Assembly: GCF_012927185.1 (NCBI RefSeq)
Contig: NZ_JABBGB010000003.1
Span: 1,426,001-1,490,000 of the forward strand
DNA from: Pseudoflavitalea sp. G-6-1-2
GTDB lineage: Bacteria; Bacteroidota; Bacteroidia; Chitinophagales; Chitinophagaceae
DNA: 64,000 bases
Direction: 5' to 3'
Each line of letters opens with the position of its first letter. Position 1 is the stretch's first letter. A program made the translations under genes and the position numbers. Below the pieces are notes generated by a model. That model was given only the letters and a program-made list of their open reading frames with translations, was not told where the DNA came from and searched no databases. Below, in pieces: positions 990 through 56,518 of this stretch.

Positions 990-3900
990 TTAAAGTTTCA
1001 CACGCATGCCGAAGTTGATACCAATAGGGCGACCCATATTGCCAATATCAATTCCAAATCCGCCAAGTCCGCCTGTGGCAGGTGTTGTTCCATTGCTTTC
1101 AGGATCGATGCCTGAGTAGTTGGTGATCAGCAAAACATCCGTTGCGGTAACAAAGAGACTGAGATCTTTCAGCCATTTTACACGCTCTAGTGATTTTTTG
1201 GTGAAGTAGTACGAAAGTGTGATGTCCCTTACACGAAACGCATTGATATCTTTTTCAACAAACATTTCCGGTGCAATACCGTTGGTGGTGGAGGTGTAGA
1301 ATGCACTGTTGTTGTACGGTGTAACTACAATGGTATTCTGGGTTGGGTTCTTGCTGTTTTCCAGTCCATCTTTCAGCACACCTTTTACAATACGTGGTGT
1401 TTCACGGTCGAGTGTTTTAGTGCTTAGGCCGGTGGTATACAGCGTATATTGTGTAGCGTTATAAACGTCTCCACCTTTTCTCAGATCAACCAGCATGGAC
1501 AGGCTCCAGTTCTTGTACGAGATTTTGTTTACCAGACCTATCTGAAAATCGGGTGTTCTGTCTCCGATGTAGTAGAAATCACCGCCGGTTTTCAGAATAG
1601 GGAGACCATTTGCAGGATTGATCAGTACATCGCCGTTGTTGTTGCGTTCGAGTATCCAGCCGCCCATAGCCCCTGTGCTTCTTCCGGGGAATACCGAAGC
1701 GCGAACACCATCTTGCAGCCAGGTATCGGAGCTGTAATATTCAGGAAGTTCTTCCGCCACTTTTTTAATTACTCCTTTGTTTTTAGTGAAGTTCACGGTT
1801 ACGTCCCAGGTGAAATCTTTTTTGCTGATAGGAGAACCTGTCAATTGCAGTTCAATACCATTGTTCACCAGTTCACCACCGTTGAAGATCTTAACAACAT
1901 AACCCGTTCCGTAACTCAGGCGGGGGTTGATGATCTGCTTCATCGCGTGCAGTCTGTACCATGTGAAATCGAAACCCAGCCTGTTTTTGAAGAACTGCAT
2001 TTCGAGGCCTGCTTCAATATTTCTGGAGTATTCAACTCTCAGCTTGTCGTTCCCGCCGTTTGTAATATTGTAAGCGAAACCACCACCGGTACTGTTTGCA
2101 GGTTCCAGAAAGGGAGCAGTTTTGTAAGATTGTCTGGGCTCTTTACCTGTATATGCATAAGAGGTCCGCAGCTTTCCTGATGAAAGCCATGAAATATTCT
2201 TAAACTGCTCCAGGTCTGTAAAGTTGAAAGCCAGACTGGCAGCAGGGTAGAAGAAGTATGGGTTATTGCTCATCAGCCGCGAAGCTGCATCCATACGTGC
2301 AGTCAGTGTCAGATATAAAAGCGACTGATAACCGAGCACTGACTGTGCAAAAACACCAAACTGTCTGAAACGCTCTACCGAGTGTTTATTTCTTTGAGTA
2401 GTGGTAAGTGTGTTGTTGATGTCATAGAAATTAGGATCATACATTTTTTCACCCAACTGTGCCGTAGTATTCAAATTGTAATCATTGAAGTTGGTTCCAA
2501 TGATATAAGTATTGTTGAACTTGCCGAAGTTATGTACCGCGGTAGCTGTCAATGCACCATTGATGATCTTATTCAGTGCCTGGTAAGTTTCAATGCGGCC
2601 TCCCGTTGGTGAGGCTGATGAACCTGAGCCTTTGTAAGACTGGGCATGATATACAAGCATGCCATTGGTGGTAGAGATGTCTGCACCAATAGTACCTGCA
2701 ACCGTAAGCCAGTTGGTAGGCTTTAGTGTGATGGTTCCGTTTCCAAGAAAACGGTTTACCTTGTCTTCTCCGATATTTTTGTATACATCCCAGAACGGAT
2801 TGTCCGTTTCTGTGAAAATAGTACCCGTATTCAATACGCGGTTGCCATAAATATCCTGCCAGTTATTCACATCATATCTCGAAGGGAAGGTCAACAGTCC
2901 CATCAGGTATCCTCTGTCTCCTTTATTGGCTTTCTTGTTGCTGGTGTTGATATAGTTCAGCGATGTATTTACCGAGAGTATGGGATTGATGGTGGCTGTT
3001 GCAGATAAACGCGAGGAAAACCTTGTGTAGCTTGTATTCGGGATGGTACCGGTATTGTCTGAAAACTCGTTGGACCATCTATAACTGAGACCACTGTTTC
3101 CGCCTTCTATTGCCAGGTTGTGTTTCTGGCTGAAACTGGTCTGGAAGAACTGATGGATATTATCGTAGATCTGCATCCCATCGGCATACTTAGGACCAAA
3201 ATACAACCTTGTATTTCCATTGTAAACGCCATTGCTTGTACCCTGACTGTACACTTGCTGTACTTCCGGGAAATTCAATTGCTTTTCAAAGCGGAATGAG
3301 TTGTTGTAAGTAACGGCACCCTGACCAGCTTTTGCTTTTTTGGTAGTGATAACGATGGCGCCCGAAGCTCCCATATTGCCATACAAAGCAGTGGCTTCAG
3401 GTCCTTTCAGGATAGTATATTTCTCAATGTCGGCAGGATTAATGTCGATAAAGCGGTTGGAAAAATCCTGGTCCCTGTTGTTACGGTTTCCGGCAAGTGT
3501 TCCGCCATTCATGATTGAGTTGTCGATAGGTAATCCATCGATTACTATCAGTGGCGTATTATCCTGATCGAGTGAAACGATACCACGAAGGATAACCTGT
3601 GATGATGCACCCGGATTACCTGTAGTGGAGTTCACCGTAAGACCCGGAACGCGGCCCATCAGACCATTCACGAAGCTTTCGCGCTGCGTTTGTGCTACCT
3701 CATCACCTGCAACTACCGGAGTGGAGTAACCGAGACTCTTCTTGTTACGGTTAATGCCGTGAGCCGTAACGATTACTTCTCCCAGTTGTTTGTCGGTAGA
3801 CAGGAGCTGCACATTCAGCACTTCATTTTTTACCGGAATGGATTGTGATGAAAACCCTACAAACGTAAAAGTGAGTACCTGACCGGCTTGTGCCGAGATC

Positions 3901-20528: not shown

Positions 20529-20639
20529 TTGCGCATTTAATTGGTGCGTAGCGGAAGGGAAGAAAATATCAACGAAGAAGTTTAAACATGCAGATGCGCA
20601 TGTTTTCGTCCTTACACCTTTCACCCGAAAGCTACGACT

Positions 20640-20825
20640 AATGCAGTTGGCAGGTCTTCTGACTTATTCCGGTTTTTCCTGCCTTCCCATTTCGCGGAGA
20701 ACGAAAACAGTGGCTTTGTCTGGAAAACTTTGTGTGGAATTTACAGCTACGGGGATAGTCCCGGATTTACACCGGGTTCCCATTTTAATTCTCTTCCTGT
20801 TGGGTTGAGAAACCAAATGCGGGGC
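20640..20825 (-). promoter_or_regulatory. Cobalamin riboswitch controlling the BtuB-like gene
   Basis: Reading the minus strand from about 20825: an initial GGTTTCTCAACC helix, then the core GGGAACCCGGTG.AAATCCGGGAC, the CCCGTAGCTGTAA block that corresponds to the conserved CCCGCAACTGTAA box, and a terminal AGTCAGAAGACCTGCC (20649-20664 on plus), the standard 3' part of the B12-box aptamer. It lies about 110 nt before the BtuB-like start codon. B12-bound RNA is expected to block expression. The aptamer begins 17 nt after the LytTR regulator's stop, so its own promoter may lie inside that gene, or transcription may read through. Confidence 0.95.
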
Positions 20826-20841
20826 GAAGGTAGGCAATTAT

Positions 20842-45067: not shown

Positions 45068-45141
45068 GGACCGGTAGCTCAGCTGGATAGAGCAGCTGCC
45101 TTCTAAGCAGCAGGTCATTGGTTCGAATCCAATCCGGTTCA
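45068..45141 (+). tRNA. tRNA-Arg (anticodon TCT)
   Basis: A 74-nt cloverleaf: acceptor GGACCGG/CCGGTTC with one G-T pair, D arm GCTC/GAGC, anticodon stem GCTGC/GCAGC with loop CTTCTAA (anticodon TCT), T arm ATTGG/CCAAT with TTCGAAT, discriminator A. It decodes AGA (and AGG by wobble). CCA is not encoded. A terminator-like hairpin follows. Confidence 0.97.
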
Positions 45142-45152
45142 CTCAGCAAATC

Positions 45153-45184
45153 AAACCCGTGCTAGTCGCGGGTTTTGTATTTTA
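45153..45184 (+). terminator. Terminator after tRNA-Arg
   Basis: A 9-bp stem, AAACCCGTG with CGCGGGTTT (45153-45161 and 45167-45175, one G-T pair), has a 5-nt loop and is followed by TGTATTTT. Confidence 0.75.
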
Positions 45185-47307: not shown

Positions 47308-47358
47308 TAAATATGCTTATAAAGTTTCAAAAACTTTCCACCCTTTCATACTGCATTT

Positions 47359-47383
47359 AAAACCCGCGCCCGTCGCGGGTTTT
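47359..47383 (+). terminator. Terminator after the DEAD-box gene
   Basis: A perfect 10-bp stem AAAACCCGCG/CGCGGGTTTT with loop CCCGT lies 51 nt after the stop; the stem's own 3' end supplies the short T-run. Confidence 0.75.
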
Positions 47384-48681: not shown

Positions 48682-51450
48682 TCAAGCATACCTTGTATCT
48701 CCCGAAGGCACCACGTAATCTCCCGGACCCGTTCCCGGCTGCACATTCCACCACGCATTCGCCTGGCTCGCATCCGGCGTTCTGATCACATTGGTACCAC
48801 AATGTATTCCACCGCTCCTCACATGATAATACCATGAATCTACCCAGTGCACATTCACATGCAGCGACTCCAGCATTATCTGCGTATACAACTCAAACAG
48901 ATCCACCTTGTTTTCCGGAATCTCTAACCTATGCCATCCTGCACGCAGATTGCCATTCGGCATAAACTTCCCGGCATTCGCAGGCGCTCTTCTTATTCTT
49001 CTTTTTATTTCGTCCAGGTCTTCGGTTTCAGGAAAGAATCCATCTTTGAACTGCTCCGCCAGATAATCGAGATCAACGTGCACCGGACGATTATACGGAC
49101 CTGTAATTACATGGCTCAATTCATTGATGGTATCTACCGTCCAGTGAAAGGTTCTATTCAGTCCGCGTTGAATAATGTAACGGCGGTTGAGATACTGATG
49201 ATATCCTCTGTCCATAACATTCGTCAATACTGCAATTGCATCGGGTATCGACATCCGTGGGCCATTCGGACGTGGGATCAGTATATGATCATTCACGGTT
49301 TGAAAGTTCACCAGGTCTGGTGTAAAGGCAATTGTTTGCTCATAATCCGGATTGTATTCATCGAAGAATACCGGTAGTTCAATCATCGGCATTTCTCCAA
49401 ACTCTCTTTGCAGCCGCTCTTTGGCGGTATCTATTTTTTCCTGTACCAGTCTCGATGAATGGGCACTGAAATACAGCATCTCACGAACACTGATGCGTGC
49501 GTCGTAGTAATGATCATCGGGCCATGGAATGGGATAATATCTTCTGGTGCTTACTCCCAAATCACCATAGTAGCGGTTCATCCAGGTGTAGATCGTAGGA
49601 GGTGGGGTAGTGAAGCTGCCGGAGGTATGATAAGTCTGCAACCAGTGCTTGCCTCTCAGTAAACGTGTTACAGGATGCGGCCCACGCGCCATCGAATAAT
49701 CGCCTAAATGATAGGGGGCACCATACAGTTCACTCATTGGATCATTTGCAGATAAGTGAGCTGTATTCAGCAGAAAAATTTCTTCCAGTATGCGTTGCGC
49801 AATGGCCGGAGAGGCGAGCGTGGTGGCAAAGAATCCTGTTACACCGGGTGAAGAGATGAAGTTCACCATCTCATCTACGTGGCCTACTTTCAGCCACGCT
49901 GTATCGAGTGTGATGATGGGCTGCTCTCCCTGCACCAGCAGAAAATCCGATAACTGCGGATCGAGCAATGAGCGTGCATTTGCTCCGGTGGCATCTCCGA
50001 TTACAATTTTTCCTAACGGAGCGCCGCCATAGGAAGGTGTTACTTCGATATTGCCGCCATAATTGTGTGAGCTGTGCAATGCATCGAAGCGTTCCTGAAT
50101 CTGTTCTATGTCGTCTGGCTCCAGTGCCAGTCTGAGATTGGCCGTTCTTACCGCAAGTGCTCCGTCTGATCTGAAGTTGATTTCACGAAGCAGGGCGGGA
50201 ACGCCGGCAGTAATATCTGTGATGGTGTTTTGTATTCTTTGTCTTCGTACAGCATCCCGTTCGCGGGCTTCTGCTGCGTTCAGTAATCGAAGTACATCGT
50301 CCCTGAAATCAGGAAGATTATTGATCACCGATGTAAGATCGAATCTGAAATAAGTAGAGTAGAGGCGACTTGCCTCAGAAGGCGCTGCCTGTTGCCCTAC
50401 ACTCAATAAATAACTATTCACTTCCATCACGCGTTCGAACAGCATGGTCACTTCCACTGTTTGGGTGAAAGGAATATTCACCGTGCCTGCATCAACATCA
50501 CGAACAGGTAGGGTGCGTGTCCAGAAATCGTTGCAGGTACCCAGACCGGTAGAGGGAAAATGATCCGTAGCAATACAGAATAGACTGTTGGTGCCCGAAA
50601 GCCTTGTGTCTGTACGCAGACGTGGCAGATGGAGAATCACTTTCATGGCGCCGGCGGCAGTTTGCGCATATCCCAGCTGAAACTGATCCTGCACCCATGA
50701 GTCTCCGTTGTGAACAGCCTCAGGAATGAGGGTAAGTGCCACTCCGCGAACGGTGCGCATCACATCGCGCACATCGGTGAGCGAAGGCGTATTGTCGGAG
50801 AGCGAAGCAGTGGCGCCGGCAACTTCGCAGATGTACAATCTTTCTGCCGGCATATGATCGCCCATGAGAATGAGTGGTGAAATGGATACCAGTCCTGTGT
50901 CGGATTCAATCAGGTTTCCCTGCACTGCATCGAACACATCGATGCTAATGTTGAATCTGTTGGCAGCAGGAGGAGCCAGCAGCAGGGCCCGTAAGCTGGT
51001 GCCTCTGCCGGGCAATGCGGGTGATCCGGTGAACGTAATCACTTCCAGAAATAGATCTACCCTTGTGCCGGTAAAATTGAGAACGAATTTTGTGAACCCT
51101 CCGGCTGAAACACCCGTTAATCTCGATCTTCCCGAATCATACACTTTTACATTCACTGCATCCGCATCAGCTAATTTGAATTCAACACGATGCTGCGCAG
51201 TAACGGTTCCTGTGTTGGCAATGATGGCAACGGGCAGCAGATCATTATCACCTCCGCTTTTGGTAGGAGGCCTGTAATCCAGTGTGGGAGGGGAACCGCA
51301 GGAAACCGTGCCGGGGAGCGCCGTTCCATCAACGTCGATGTTGGGCATTATCAGCGCTCCCGGTACATAGTTTCGCGCCTGGTATTCGGATGTACTCGCA
51401 TTGAGTACTCCGTTCTGGTCGTAATCTGCATGCAGGCTGTATAAAGGCAT
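48682..51450 (-). CDS. Peptidylarginine deiminase, vertebrate PAD-type (PF03068-like)
   Basis: A 922-residue protein whose C-terminal two thirds match animal PADs. The four catalytic residues are in place: D255 (SWVQDQFQLGY), H524 and D526 (LKVGHVDEMVNF) and the nucleophile C884 (SGGIHCGTNV). PADs turn protein arginine into citrulline with calcium. The N-terminal part (1-200) contains an acidic ADYDQNGVL loop that may bind calcium and a beta-sandwich. It is longer than human PADs (about 663 residues), mainly through the segments between the catalytic motifs. No signal peptide is seen. It starts 16 nt after the stop of a 994-residue protein gene. This is a different family from the secreted Porphyromonas-type agmatine-deiminase-like PPAD. 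Confidence 0.93.
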   Translation of the reverse strand: MPLYSLHADYDQNGVLNASTSEYQARNYVPGALIMPNIDVDGTALPGTVSCGSPPTLDYRPPTKSGGDNDLLPVAIIANTGTVTAQHRVEFKLADADAVNVKVYDSGRSRLTGVSAGGFTKFVLNFTGTRVDLFLEVITFTGSPALPGRGTSLRALLLAPPAANRFNISIDVFDAVQGNLIESDTGLVSISPLILMGDHMPAERLYICEVAGATASLSDNTPSLTDVRDVMRTVRGVALTLIPEAVHNGDSWVQDQFQLGYAQTAAGAMKVILHLPRLRTDTRLSGTNSLFCIATDHFPSTGLGTCNDFWTRTLPVRDVDAGTVNIPFTQTVEVTMLFERVMEVNSYLLSVGQQAAPSEASRLYSTYFRFDLTSVINNLPDFRDDVLRLLNAAEARERDAVRRQRIQNTITDITAGVPALLREINFRSDGALAVRTANLRLALEPDDIEQIQERFDALHSSHNYGGNIEVTPSYGGAPLGKIVIGDATGANARSLLDPQLSDFLLVQGEQPIITLDTAWLKVGHVDEMVNFISSPGVTGFFATTLASPAIAQRILEEIFLLNTAHLSANDPMSELYGAPYHLGDYSMARGPHPVTRLLRGKHWLQTYHTSGSFTTPPPTIYTWMNRYYGDLGVSTRRYYPIPWPDDHYYDARISVREMLYFSAHSSRLVQEKIDTAKERLQREFGEMPMIELPVFFDEYNPDYEQTIAFTPDLVNFQTVNDHILIPRPNGPRMSIPDAIAVLTNVMDRGYHQYLNRRYIIQRGLNRTFHWTVDTINELSHVITGPYNRPVHVDLDYLAEQFKDGFFPETEDLDEIKRRIRRAPANAGKFMPNGNLRAGWHRLEIPENKVDLFELYTQIMLESLHVNVHWVDSWYYHVRSGGIHCGTNVIRTPDASQANAWWNVQPGTGPGDYVVPSGDTRYA

Positions 51451-54451: not shown

Positions 54452-54711
54452 AGATTGGTGTTTATGGTTGAAATAATGGTTGAAGAATACAATGAGTGCT
54501 GCGTTTGCAGAACTTAACCTGAAAGGAGGGACAACGGGACTAAAAAAACAGGGGGAAGGAAAATCGACAGCACAAAAGTACATGCTTTCGTATGATGAAA
54601 AAATACCACTTAACGGTAGTTTTTTGCTGGCCATACAACCATTTGCAATTGATCTATGTTATTTTGATTTCTGCTGCAACTATTTACATTGCAGCTCTTA
54701 TACAACTATCA

Positions 54712-55554
54712 ATGAAAAAAACTATCATGGCAATTGTAAGTGCAGTTTCGCTCACGGGCAGCCTGGAAGCACAACAGAAATCAGGCGGGAAAGAGAATAC
54801 TGTTCAGCTTATCCGCAGTGCAACTTTGAAACTGAATTATGCAGGCAGAACCTTTGTGGTAGATCCCATGTTTTCAGCCAAAGGCGAATTCATGTCATTT
54901 GCCGGGGTGGAGAAGAATCCTACGGTAGGGCTTCCGATGCCGGTTGAAGAGATCAAAAAGAATGTAGAGTTCGTGCTTGTTACGCATACACATATCGATC
55001 ATTTCGACCCTGCGGCATCTGCAGCATTGGATAAATCATCGCAGTTGTACATTCAGCCGACAGATGTGGCATTCTTCGAAAAGGAGAAATTCACCAAAGC
55101 AAAGCCGGTGAACGATAGCATTGTTGATGGGAATATCACTATTCACAGAACTTCCGGCCAGCATGGTAAAGGTGCAGTGGGAGCGCGGATGGGAAATGTA
55201 TCGGGTTTTGTGTTGAAGTCGCCCGGACATCCTACCATCTACATTGTGGGCGACTGCATTTTTACAGATGAGATACTGGGTAATATCAAACATTATGATC
55301 CGGATTATATCATCGTAAATTCAGGAGGTGCATTTATCACCAACTTTCAGGTAGATGGACCGATAATTATGGATGAGTCTCAGGTGGTACAGACAGCAGC
55401 ATCTTCTGCAAAAGCAAAAGTGATTGCGGTGCATATGGAGGCGTTGGATCATTGTCCGGTTACAAGAGTTTCGCTTCGCAACAAAGCGAATTTTCTGCAA
55501 ATCAGGGAAGATAAGTTGCTTATCCCAAAGGACGGAGAAGTGATCAGATTGTAG
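54712..55554 (+). CDS. Secreted MBL-fold metal-dependent hydrolase (UlaG-like)
   Basis: A 280-residue protein starting at MKKTIMAIVSAVSLTGSLEA, giving a signal peptide; the frame is open 40 codons further back without protein character. The metallo-beta-lactamase motif THTHIDHFDP (about 91-100) supplies the first metal ligands, VGDCIFTDE the acid and AVHMEALDHC a late histidine. The arrangement TLKLNYAGRTFVVDPMFS at the start is that of UlaG-like lactonases. The substrate is unknown. It is divergent from the PAD-partner gene and convergent with the RNA ligase gene. Confidence 0.87.
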   Translation: MKKTIMAIVSAVSLTGSLEAQQKSGGKENTVQLIRSATLKLNYAGRTFVVDPMFSAKGEFMSFAGVEKNPTVGLPMPVEEIKKNVEFVLVTHTHIDHFDPAASAALDKSSQLYIQPTDVAFFEKEKFTKAKPVNDSIVDGNITIHRTSGQHGKGAVGARMGNVSGFVLKSPGHPTIYIVGDCIFTDEILGNIKHYDPDYIIVNSGGAFITNFQVDGPIIMDESQVVQTAASSAKAKVIAVHMEALDHCPVTRVSLRNKANFLQIREDKLLIPKDGEVIRL

Positions 55555-55656: not shown

Positions 55657-56211
55657 TCACCATTTAAAGCCAAAATCCTTTTTCCTGATTTTGACTCTTC
55701 TGCCATCGGGATGATACCAAACAAAGCCTTCGATATTGGCTTCTGCAAAGTATTTTTTCAGATCTTCGAAATTGCGGGGAGGGTTCTCTATCACTTCATT
55801 TCCATGTGGAATCAGAAAGTGTTTTTCAAAACCATCCTTATTGCCATTGATGCGTGGCACTACCAGTTCAAAAGTTCCGAAGGCAACAAACTTGTCACCA
55901 ATACTGTTTGCGTAGCCTTCCCGAAACCATTTATCTTCCGGGCCTTCACCTACTTTCAGCCAGCCGGGCCAGTGACCTGTAATTGGGTCTGGGTCTTGTG
56001 CAGGCACAAATTCTTCAGGCGGTGTTTTGCCATGCTTTGCGTCGAAGCGTTTGTAAAAAATACCGTCTTCGATTTTGCAACAGGTGCCATCCCATTTTCG
56101 TGTAGCGAAACCTTCTCCGTTGATTACCCATTTTGCGCCTGGTACAACTTCGTCCCTTACCAGTTTGTCGCCATCATAATTACGCTTGAAAAGCGAAATG
56201 ATCTTCTTCAT
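55657..56211 (-). CDS. RLIG1-like (DUF5565/C12orf29 family) ATP-dependent RNA ligase
   Basis: A 184-residue protein from MKKIISLFKRNYDGDKLVRD, a compact nucleotidyltransferase. The adenylation motif is RKWDGTCC with K39 as predicted AMP-accepting lysine. FGTFELVVPRINGN (about 111-124) and LIPHGNEVIENPP (133-145) match motifs shared with human RLIG1. EGFVWYHPDGRRVKI (161-175) holds motif IV and motif V, with K174 binding the phosphate. RLIG1 joins a 5'-phosphate to a 3'-hydroxyl RNA end. The protein is about half the human length and lacks the N- and C-terminal extensions. It starts 34 nt after the 3' end of tRNA-Ile(TAT) on the same strand, with a T8 run just before the start, and may be cotranscribed with it. 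Confidence 0.9.
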   Translation of the reverse strand: MKKIISLFKRNYDGDKLVRDEVVPGAKWVINGEGFATRKWDGTCCKIEDGIFYKRFDAKHGKTPPEEFVPAQDPDPITGHWPGWLKVGEGPEDKWFREGYANSIGDKFVAFGTFELVVPRINGNKDGFEKHFLIPHGNEVIENPPRNFEDLKKYFAEANIEGFVWYHPDGRRVKIRKKDFGFKW

Positions 56212-56228
56212 AAAAAAAATTTGTTGAT

Positions 56229-56244
56229 AATGGCATATGCCATT
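56229..56244. repeat. Perfect 16-bp palindrome between tRNA-Ile and the RNA ligase gene
   Basis: AATGGCATATGCCATT is fully self-complementary and lies 1 nt beyond the tRNA 3' end and 17 nt before the ligase start codon. On the minus strand it is followed by ATCAACAAA and a T8 run. It may be an operator, a processing hairpin for the tRNA trailer, or a weak terminator that limits ligase expression. Confidence 0.6.
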
Positions 56245-56245
56245 G

Positions 56246-56319
56246 TTGATGCTACCGGACTTGAACCGGTAACCTTGTGCGTATAAGGCACCTGCTCTGA
56301 CCAATTGAGCTAAGCATCA
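56246..56319 (-). tRNA. tRNA-Ile (anticodon TAT)
   Basis: A 74-nt cloverleaf on the minus strand: acceptor TGATGCT/AGCATCA, D arm GCTC/GAGC with GG in the loop, anticodon stem GGTGC/GCACA with loop CTTATAC (anticodon TAT), variable loop AGGTT, T arm ACCGG/CCGGT with TTCAAGT, discriminator A. The first anticodon-stem pair (G27-A43) is mismatched. It would read AUA. Most bacteria read AUA with a lysidine-modified CAT tRNA instead, so a TAT tRNA is unusual. CCA is not encoded. Confidence 0.9.
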
Positions 56320-56374
56320 TTTTCTGATCAGTAGGGAAAACGCTGGAATTGAGTGCAGATAAGCATTACAGGAA

Positions 56375-56518
56375 AGAACAAACCCTCGTGCTTATTTGCT
56401 CCGAGGGTTTGTTCCTTGTATCAAGCTATTTGGTTCATAGCAACAATAACCGACCTCCCGAAAGCTGTTTGCTTCCTATCTGGTATATGTTTGCTATGAG
56501 TTGAAGTCGTTTCATTGT
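56375..56518 (-). ncRNA. Candidate structured small RNA or attenuator leader upstream of tRNA-Ile(TAT)
   Basis: On the minus strand, just after a consensus promoter (56524-56554), the transcript would begin near 56518. A 9-bp helix pairs TCATAGCAA (near 56499-56491) with TTGCTATGA (56443-56435). Inside it is a smaller GGAAGC/GCTTTC hairpin. A 13-bp GC-rich hairpin follows: GAACAAACCCTCG/CGAGGGTTTGTTC (56414-56402 and 56388-56376), then TTTCC. The region could be a free-standing RNA of about 140 nt, or a leader with terminator for the tRNA 57 nt further on. No known RNA family was recognised. Confidence 0.5.
56435..56515 (-). CDS. Possible 26-residue leader peptide
   Basis: A 27-codon frame with ATG at 56513-56515 and TGA at 56435-56437. 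The peptide begins MKRLQLIANIYQIGSKQ and ends in four leucines (GGRLLLL). It contains three ATA isoleucine codons (residues 7, 10 and 13), the codon read by the tRNA-Ile(TAT) that lies downstream. The start is only a few nt after the predicted transcription start. It overlaps the RNA helix described above, so coding and structure may be alternatives. No similarity to a known peptide is claimed. Confidence 0.35.
   Translation of the reverse strand: MKRLQLIANIYQIGSKQLSGGRLLLL

Follow-up and report, generated by a model that had tools for sequence, protein, structure and literature searches.

Ligases of the RLIG1 (C12orf29) family (PF17720, DUF5565), which includes Yasminevirus RLIG1 (PDB 9c6l, 9c6m), are the closest described relatives of the protein reported here. 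The family, its bacterial and phage members and its sealing of tRNA are already in print (PMC11494293); several bacterial and viral homologues are reported there to seal tRNA halves with 5'-phosphate and 3'-hydroxyl ends in vitro. The ProFaNA paper, as it concerns DUF5565 neighborhoods, reported that tRNA genes are over-represented, occurring in more than 20% of the neighborhoods of 390 bacterial homologues (PMC10364804). Arrays of tRNAs with RNase H and exonuclease genes have been noted (PMC10910872), as have RNA-repair operons of the rtcBA type, in which an RNA ligase operon responds to damaged tRNA (PMC7790460). Phage tRNAs and ligases have been discussed as counter-defense (PMC7824862; PMC10264068), and chromosomal clusters of spare tRNAs are suspected anti-defense devices, with a role that the source calls unknown (PMC12803027). 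Against PrrC, phage T4 is described as mending the cut tRNA with Pnk in addition to Rnl1, which is also a nucleotidyltransferase-type RNA ligase.

Unlike those tRNA arrays and rtcBA-type operons, the locus described here (Table 1) consists of one tRNA gene and one ligase gene, with none of their other genes. It lies in a 64-kb stretch of DNA that is called the window below. The nearness to a tRNA agrees with the enrichment reported for DUF5565 neighborhoods (PMC10364804); gene order, strand, tRNA identity and the anatomy of larger modules come from the present analysis, and that anatomy extends the published enrichment and in vitro sealing. No description of the same-strand order of tRNA and ligase, or of an alternation between RLIG1 and RtcB, was found in the literature searched, with many journals and supplements lying outside that search.

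Table 1. Features of the tRNA-ligase locus, in positions of the window
Feature	Position	Strand	Source
tRNA-Ile(TAT), intact, intron-less, CCA not encoded, anticodon for AUA	56245..56319	-	ARAGORN
Spacer of 34 nt from tRNA to ligase start, last eight nt all T	56212..56245	-	
Perfect palindrome of 16 nt, AATGGCATATGCCATT, in the spacer directly behind the tRNA	56229..56244	-	
Hairpin upstream of the tRNA, loop pattern GGAGC...GCACG	56374..56414	-	
RLIG1-family ATP-dependent 5'-to-3' RNA ligase (predicted), 184 aa	55657..56211	-	ORF, profile and model

The window ligase is a member of the RLIG1 family by profile, fold and predicted active site, which bears out what a sequence-only reading of the locus had proposed from its motifs. 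All of those motifs (KWDG with K39, LIPHG, EGFVW and VKIRKK) were present, and the Pfam RLIG1 profile (PF17720) matched with 39.9 bits against a curated cut-off of 25, the best stretch being residues 113-184. A comparison with NCBIfam gave no family, and PHROG 14301 ("RNA ligase") matched across the full length with an E value of 2.5e-73. Full-length homologues reached 67% identity on viral contigs, so the frame is no chance ORF, and those in named phages, mycobacteriophages Collard and Gengar among them, reached 56%. The ligase ORF opens with an ATG at 56211 and reaches its stop at 55657. An ORF called mechanically begins further upstream, at a TTG (56304), and runs into the tRNA; the TTG is not the likely start, since methionine occupied the column of the ATG in 30 of 32 aligned rows, the window's included.

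A profile built from these 32 rows gave only two strong matches in the PDB, both to Yasminevirus RLIG1 sequences (E values of 2.2e-22 and 4e-21). The AlphaFold model of the ligase (pLDDT 93.2, pTM 0.85) was also closest in Foldseek to Yasminevirus RLIG1 (E 2e-12, TM 0.82 by query length, 21% identity), and all 12 PDB matches at E ≤ 0.001 were chains of that protein. The next structural matches were distant ones, the Naegleria ligase and T4 Rnl1, with E values of about 0.03 (0.036 for T4 Rnl1). Alignment to the residues named for Yasminevirus RLIG1 in PMC11494293 yielded a predicted active site of K39, D41, R55, E115, H136, E161 and K174, invariant in the 32 rows, and RLIG1 motifs I, Ia, III, IIIa, IV and V were all present with their catalytic K, R, E, H, E and K. 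The same 5'-phosphate to 3'-hydroxyl sealing is predicted for the window ligase as for the family. It is shorter than human RLIG1 (184 vs 325 aa), and it differs from the described family members in being nearest to phage proteins and in lying behind a tRNA gene.

The window protein is roughly as large as a nucleotidyltransferase domain alone, and Yasminevirus RLIG1 is described as being without the RNA-binding domain of T4 Rnl1 (PMC11494293). Both points would suit an enzyme of general RNA repair that does not favor tRNA and mends breaks in rRNA or mRNA, as has been proposed for human RLIG1, which was tied to the integrity of 28S rRNA under oxidative stress. The reported sealing of tRNA halves by several homologues (PMC11494293) and the over-representation of tRNA genes around bacterial homologues (PMC10364804) argue against this explanation, and we regard it as improbable.

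As the sequence-only reading had also stated, neither a kinase nor a phosphatase adjoins the ligase; the next gene, at 54592-55554 (+) and convergent to it, encodes a metallo-beta-lactamase-fold protein. The locus thus differs from T4 Pnk and Rnl1 both in lacking such a neighbor and in the weakness of the structural match to Rnl1, and the likeness to phage repair of the T4/PrrC type that was suggested earlier proved a poor fit, since T4 repair uses an end-healing kinase.

The tRNA-Ile(TAT) and its same-strand distance of 34 nt to the ligase, both called beforehand, were confirmed by ARAGORN and Rfam (66.8 bits at 56246-56319, minus strand). A ligase serving tRNA splicing or RNA circularization instead of repair seems very improbable: other RNA ligases, such as archaeal Rnl3, circularize RNAs (PMC12153264), which speaks for it, and the neighboring tRNA is intron-less, which speaks against it. 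A pattern scan for terminators listed no site within the spacer and did not list the hairpin upstream of the tRNA. Hairpins similar to the latter, with stems altered yet still pairable, were recognized by eye upstream of the tRNA in genomes G002, G175, G268 and G185; the one in the window is perhaps the leftover terminator of a transporter-like gene seen upstream in genus mates. A sigma-70 promoter scan found no site and scored below its shuffles. One Bacteroidota-type promoter motif lay ahead of the hairpin, some 200 nt upstream from the tRNA; it was given no evidential weight.

The genome that holds the window had 41 tRNA matches and a single PF01171 match, in a 449-aa frame that we take to be TilS. 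The usual lysidine route for AUA should therefore exist, which would make tRNA-Ile(UAU) a spare. In 16 window genes, AUA accounted for 83 of 642 Ile codons. The window's second tRNA lies 11 kb from tRNA-Ile(TAT), and the two do not make up a multi-tRNA cluster. Elsewhere in the window, a G+C-rich hairpin ending in TTTT occurred in two 39-nt copies that are 77% alike (45138-45176 and 47345-47383), one of them directly behind a tRNA-Arg(TCT); these are probably terminators. A cobalamin riboswitch was matched at 20632-20832 (-) with 105.7 bits. Positions 48682-51450 (-) encode a protein of 922 aa that holds a protein-arginine deiminase domain (PF03068, 135.6 bits). Its neighbor, of 1055 aa, has no Pfam match, and the regions of G002 and G175 that were compared held a match to neither protein.

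The tRNA is shared within the genus. Genus mates G002, G175 and G268 hold matches to it at 90-93%, and alignment of the tRNAs showed a paired change from C-G to T-A in the T stem between the window and these relatives. DNA upstream of the tRNA was common to the window, G175 and G268, with the tRNA and a similar hairpin in G002, and the sequence behind the tRNA differed among G002, G175 and the window. In G002 and G175 the tRNA stands without a ligase, and a profile search for the ligase in the genus found it in 1 of 6 genomes, the window's own. Joint arrival of tRNA and ligase is not favored because these genus mates hold the tRNA alone; probably the tRNA was there first and the phage-type ligase came in behind it by lateral transfer. 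The contig of G268 stops after ATGCAAAAGATC (MQKI), with a spacing almost equal to that in the window and behind a palindrome at the same spot of the spacer but of different sequence, and this end hints that the pair may exist in a second species. On a larger scale, the window was collinear (inverted) with G175 to about 21 kb and with G002 to about 15 kb with gaps; from 26 to 56 kb it was patchy against both.

In the family of the window's genome, Chitinophagaceae, the ligase was found in 8 of 394 genomes, and in a sample of the phylum in 8 of 395. The family has 7 further match loci (three of them repeat places from an earlier search, and one, in G185, a fragment), all without a tRNA within 1.5 kb. 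Likewise, no tRNA lay within 6 kb of homologues L005, L009, L012 and L013, and a search for hidden tRNAs at E values up to 1 found none near the Chitinophaga, Niastella and Sporocytophaga homologues L016, L005, L009, L013 and L006.

Since genus mates are without the ligase and the 7 other family loci are without a nearby tRNA, the window pair could be an accident of insertion, in which an older tRNA gene received a phage-derived ligase at its 3' end and the two have no common function. Mobile DNA often inserts at the 3' ends of tRNA genes. This explanation agrees with the grouping of the ligase with phage contigs described below, with a tRNA common to genus mates ahead of differing downstream content, with the patchiness of the window from 26 to 56 kb, and with viral neighborhoods, where even the most frequent neighbor family, portal-like by eye, was limited to 9 of 84 loci. 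Against it, no 16-nt piece of the tRNA occurred a second time in the window, no direct repeat of 16 nt or more involved the tRNA end, and no integrase was found among nine scanned proteins at 40.8-55.6 kb, although these searches could miss a small or decayed trace; the G268 contig end and the recurrence of the same order and strand elsewhere also speak against it. We consider an insertion accident a real possibility, at somewhat less than even chances.

Recurrence was assessed on a tree of 119 rows made with a quick search (18 starred and 51 open among 116 inner branches), from which 19 near-duplicates by ligase core had been left out of 138 rows. Of 311 viral relatives found in one search, 80 were kept. 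The tree and the counts exclude L016-L018 and L110-L112 (repeat places, a fragment and distant ones), L235 (a fragment with no match) and L260-L266 (fetched later, with no tRNA within 1.5 kb); the tRNA counts cover cellular and viral-contig rows, with 20 named phage and 13 plasmid records outside. The window ligase is of phage type: its nearest rows were phage contigs, and it stood apart from the ligases of Niastella and Chitinophaga. A place for it in the tRNA-cluster branch formed by one Bacteroidota genus (g108) and G550 was not supported, that branch being starred without it. The ligase of a Phormidium array, L004, fell with the window ligase in one weak 21-row set, and these two cases are possibly not independent.

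A same-strand tRNA lay upstream of the ligase within 150 nt in 10 of 35 distinct cellular rows and within 1.1 kb in 17 of 35, the window included; in all 17 cellular rows with a tRNA within 1.5 kb, it was upstream on the strand of the ligase. Genus g108 contributed 14 of these 17 cases. Viral-contig ligases differ from the window in this respect, with such a tRNA in 1 of 84 distinct rows within 150 nt and in only 2 of 84 within 1.1 kb. A tRNA lay within 1.5 kb of the ligase in 6 of the 84 (four upstream on the same strand), and 14 of the 84 had any tRNA in the fetched stretch. The order of tRNA, then ligase was carried by the window, the Phormidium array, genus g108 with G550, and phage contigs L041 and L192. 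On the tree, the tRNA label required 7 changes against a mean of 17.8 for shuffled labels, with none of 500 shuffles as low; near-copies add to this clustering. Within g108, 16 of 199 genomes had a ligase match. These 16 and two loci from the phylum sample made up the 18 examined, of which 14 had upstream tRNAs, three had none and one was a fragment.

The proposed link between ligase and tRNA therefore held in part. The link recurs in 17 of 35 cellular rows and is in print, but the tie to this particular tRNA is unproven, given the genus mates with a tRNA alone and the other family loci with no tRNA nearby. On the 166-kb viral contig L041, which had 20 tRNAs in the fetched 9.8 kb, a tRNA-Ile(TAT) preceded an RLIG1-type ligase by 12 nt (3141-3785). 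Alignment of the tRNAs ruled it out as a close relative of the window tRNA, so the common identity appears to be convergence or chance. Separately, L002 and L003, from records titled Rhodococcus and Dietzia, hold ligase homologues at 61-64% identity, which the tree joined in a starred pair with mainly viral rows around it. The figure 48.6 in the title of the Rhodococcus contig may be its G+C content; such a value would be low for Rhodococcus, so contamination of the record is possible.

Larger modules were seen in other Bacteroidota. In G550, 15 tRNAs are followed by an RNase-H-like gene (PF04308), a cREC_REC gene (PF20274) and the ligase, and then by further genes for a metallo-beta-lactamase-fold protein, a phosphoesterase and RNase_T exonucleases. 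Published predictions have cREC clearing cyclic phosphates and link it to RNA ligases (PMC7824862). Marker genes near the ligase in 17 g108 loci, detected by tblastn with marker pieces and bearing Pfam names taken from representatives and from similarity to the genes of L203, were a 261-aa protein with no Pfam match (13 loci), Band_7 (11), phosphoesterase (13) and exonuclease (15). A bpX4 protein of MoxR ternary systems was near the ligase in 7 of the 17 by tblastn, and L233 was the sole locus with no marker gene. Between the ligase and the Band_7 gene of two g108 loci we also observed sub-threshold Y RNA-like matches (L119 3133-3196 and L211 76-139; 37.5 and 39 bits, gathering threshold 69), perhaps a tRNA-like partner RNA. 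Burroughs and Aravind are said to have treated RNA repair and Band-7 with tRNA-like RNA in 2016.

When the window tRNA was used as a query against 294 family genomes, 30 loci were found, 17 of them with a TAT tRNA. It was lone or nearly so at 6 (the window, G002, G175, G268, G185 and G114) and stood inside clusters of 2 to 18 tRNAs at 11. All 11 clusters had at least one module-type gene nearby on the same strand, downstream except for some pieces of the AAA match of G029, which is split into several; with G114, which has two TAT tRNAs, one Cys tRNA and none of the module genes and was classed as an orphan, counted as a cluster, this becomes 11 of 12. The genes were RtcB (6 clusters), RNase-H-like (6), Band_7 (6), AAA (6) and RLIG1 (0). 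The module queries came from G253, L203 (G550) and L205 (g108), and matches in G253 and L203 are in part self-hits. Within 1.5 kb, a module-type gene accompanied 10 of the 11 clusters, and the same queries found none at 29 other tRNA loci of the window's genome, at 13 non-TAT tRNA loci of the family or at 5 orphan tRNA-Ile(TAT) loci of other genomes. Among the 30 tRNA loci fetched from the window's genome (from 41 matches, some overlapping), RLIG1, RtcB or another module-type gene lay within 1.5 kb at the window pair only, which makes its position unusual for this genome. Like the modules, the window pair has its ligase behind a same-strand tRNA; it has no cluster of two or more tRNAs and no accompanying processing genes. 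No module query other than the ligase, those for the RNase-H-like, Band-7, cREC, phosphoesterase and exonuclease genes included, had a match in the 64-kb window. RtcB-family genes and an RNase-H-like gene occur at other places of the genome, and the fetched 14-17 kb around each held no tRNAs or other tested module genes.

Our preferred reading, to which we give even chances, is that the tRNA and the ligase form a minimal unit, a stripped-down counterpart of these larger modules, that seals tRNA with 5'-phosphate/3'-hydroxyl nicks. As shown for relatives, the ligase would adenylate itself on K39, pass the AMP to the 5'-phosphate at an RNA nick and then join this end to the 3'-hydroxyl. Its main substrate would probably be tRNA whose anticodon loop has been cut by a metal-dependent nuclease; such a nuclease would leave 5'-phosphate/3'-hydroxyl ends, so no kinase or phosphatase would be needed. 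AriB is reported to leave a confirmed 3'-hydroxyl and an expected 5'-phosphate (PMC12409363), and a lone ligase could therefore undo a cut of this type. By this analogy, the window ligase would fit nucleases that leave such ends. The spare tRNA-Ile(UAU) may serve as an extra reader of AUA, and if the two genes are co-transcribed, 3'-end processing of the tRNA would free the ligase message. The modules of which the unit would be the counterpart have same-strand tRNAs, then an RNA ligase (RLIG1 or RtcB) and processing genes of the RNase-H-like, Band-7, phosphoesterase or exonuclease kind.

A broader reading is put forward only tentatively, and we think it rather unlikely. It supposes that Bacteroidota have a family of tRNA-cluster repair modules, the window pair being the smallest form, and that transcription passes through spare tRNAs before it reaches an exchangeable RNA ligase and processing partners; that RtcB or RLIG1 is matched to the chemistry of the nuclease that is answered; that the cell gains both replacement tRNAs and a mending enzyme against a tRNA-cutting attack; and that tRNA processing at the window releases the ligase message. 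Since a ligase repeatedly follows tRNA, and some modules have RtcB where others have RLIG1, tRNA replacement and tRNA repair may be one system. If this is true, the role of chromosomal spare tRNA clusters would become testable, and the two-gene unit of the window is small enough to be transferred to a laboratory strain and tested there.
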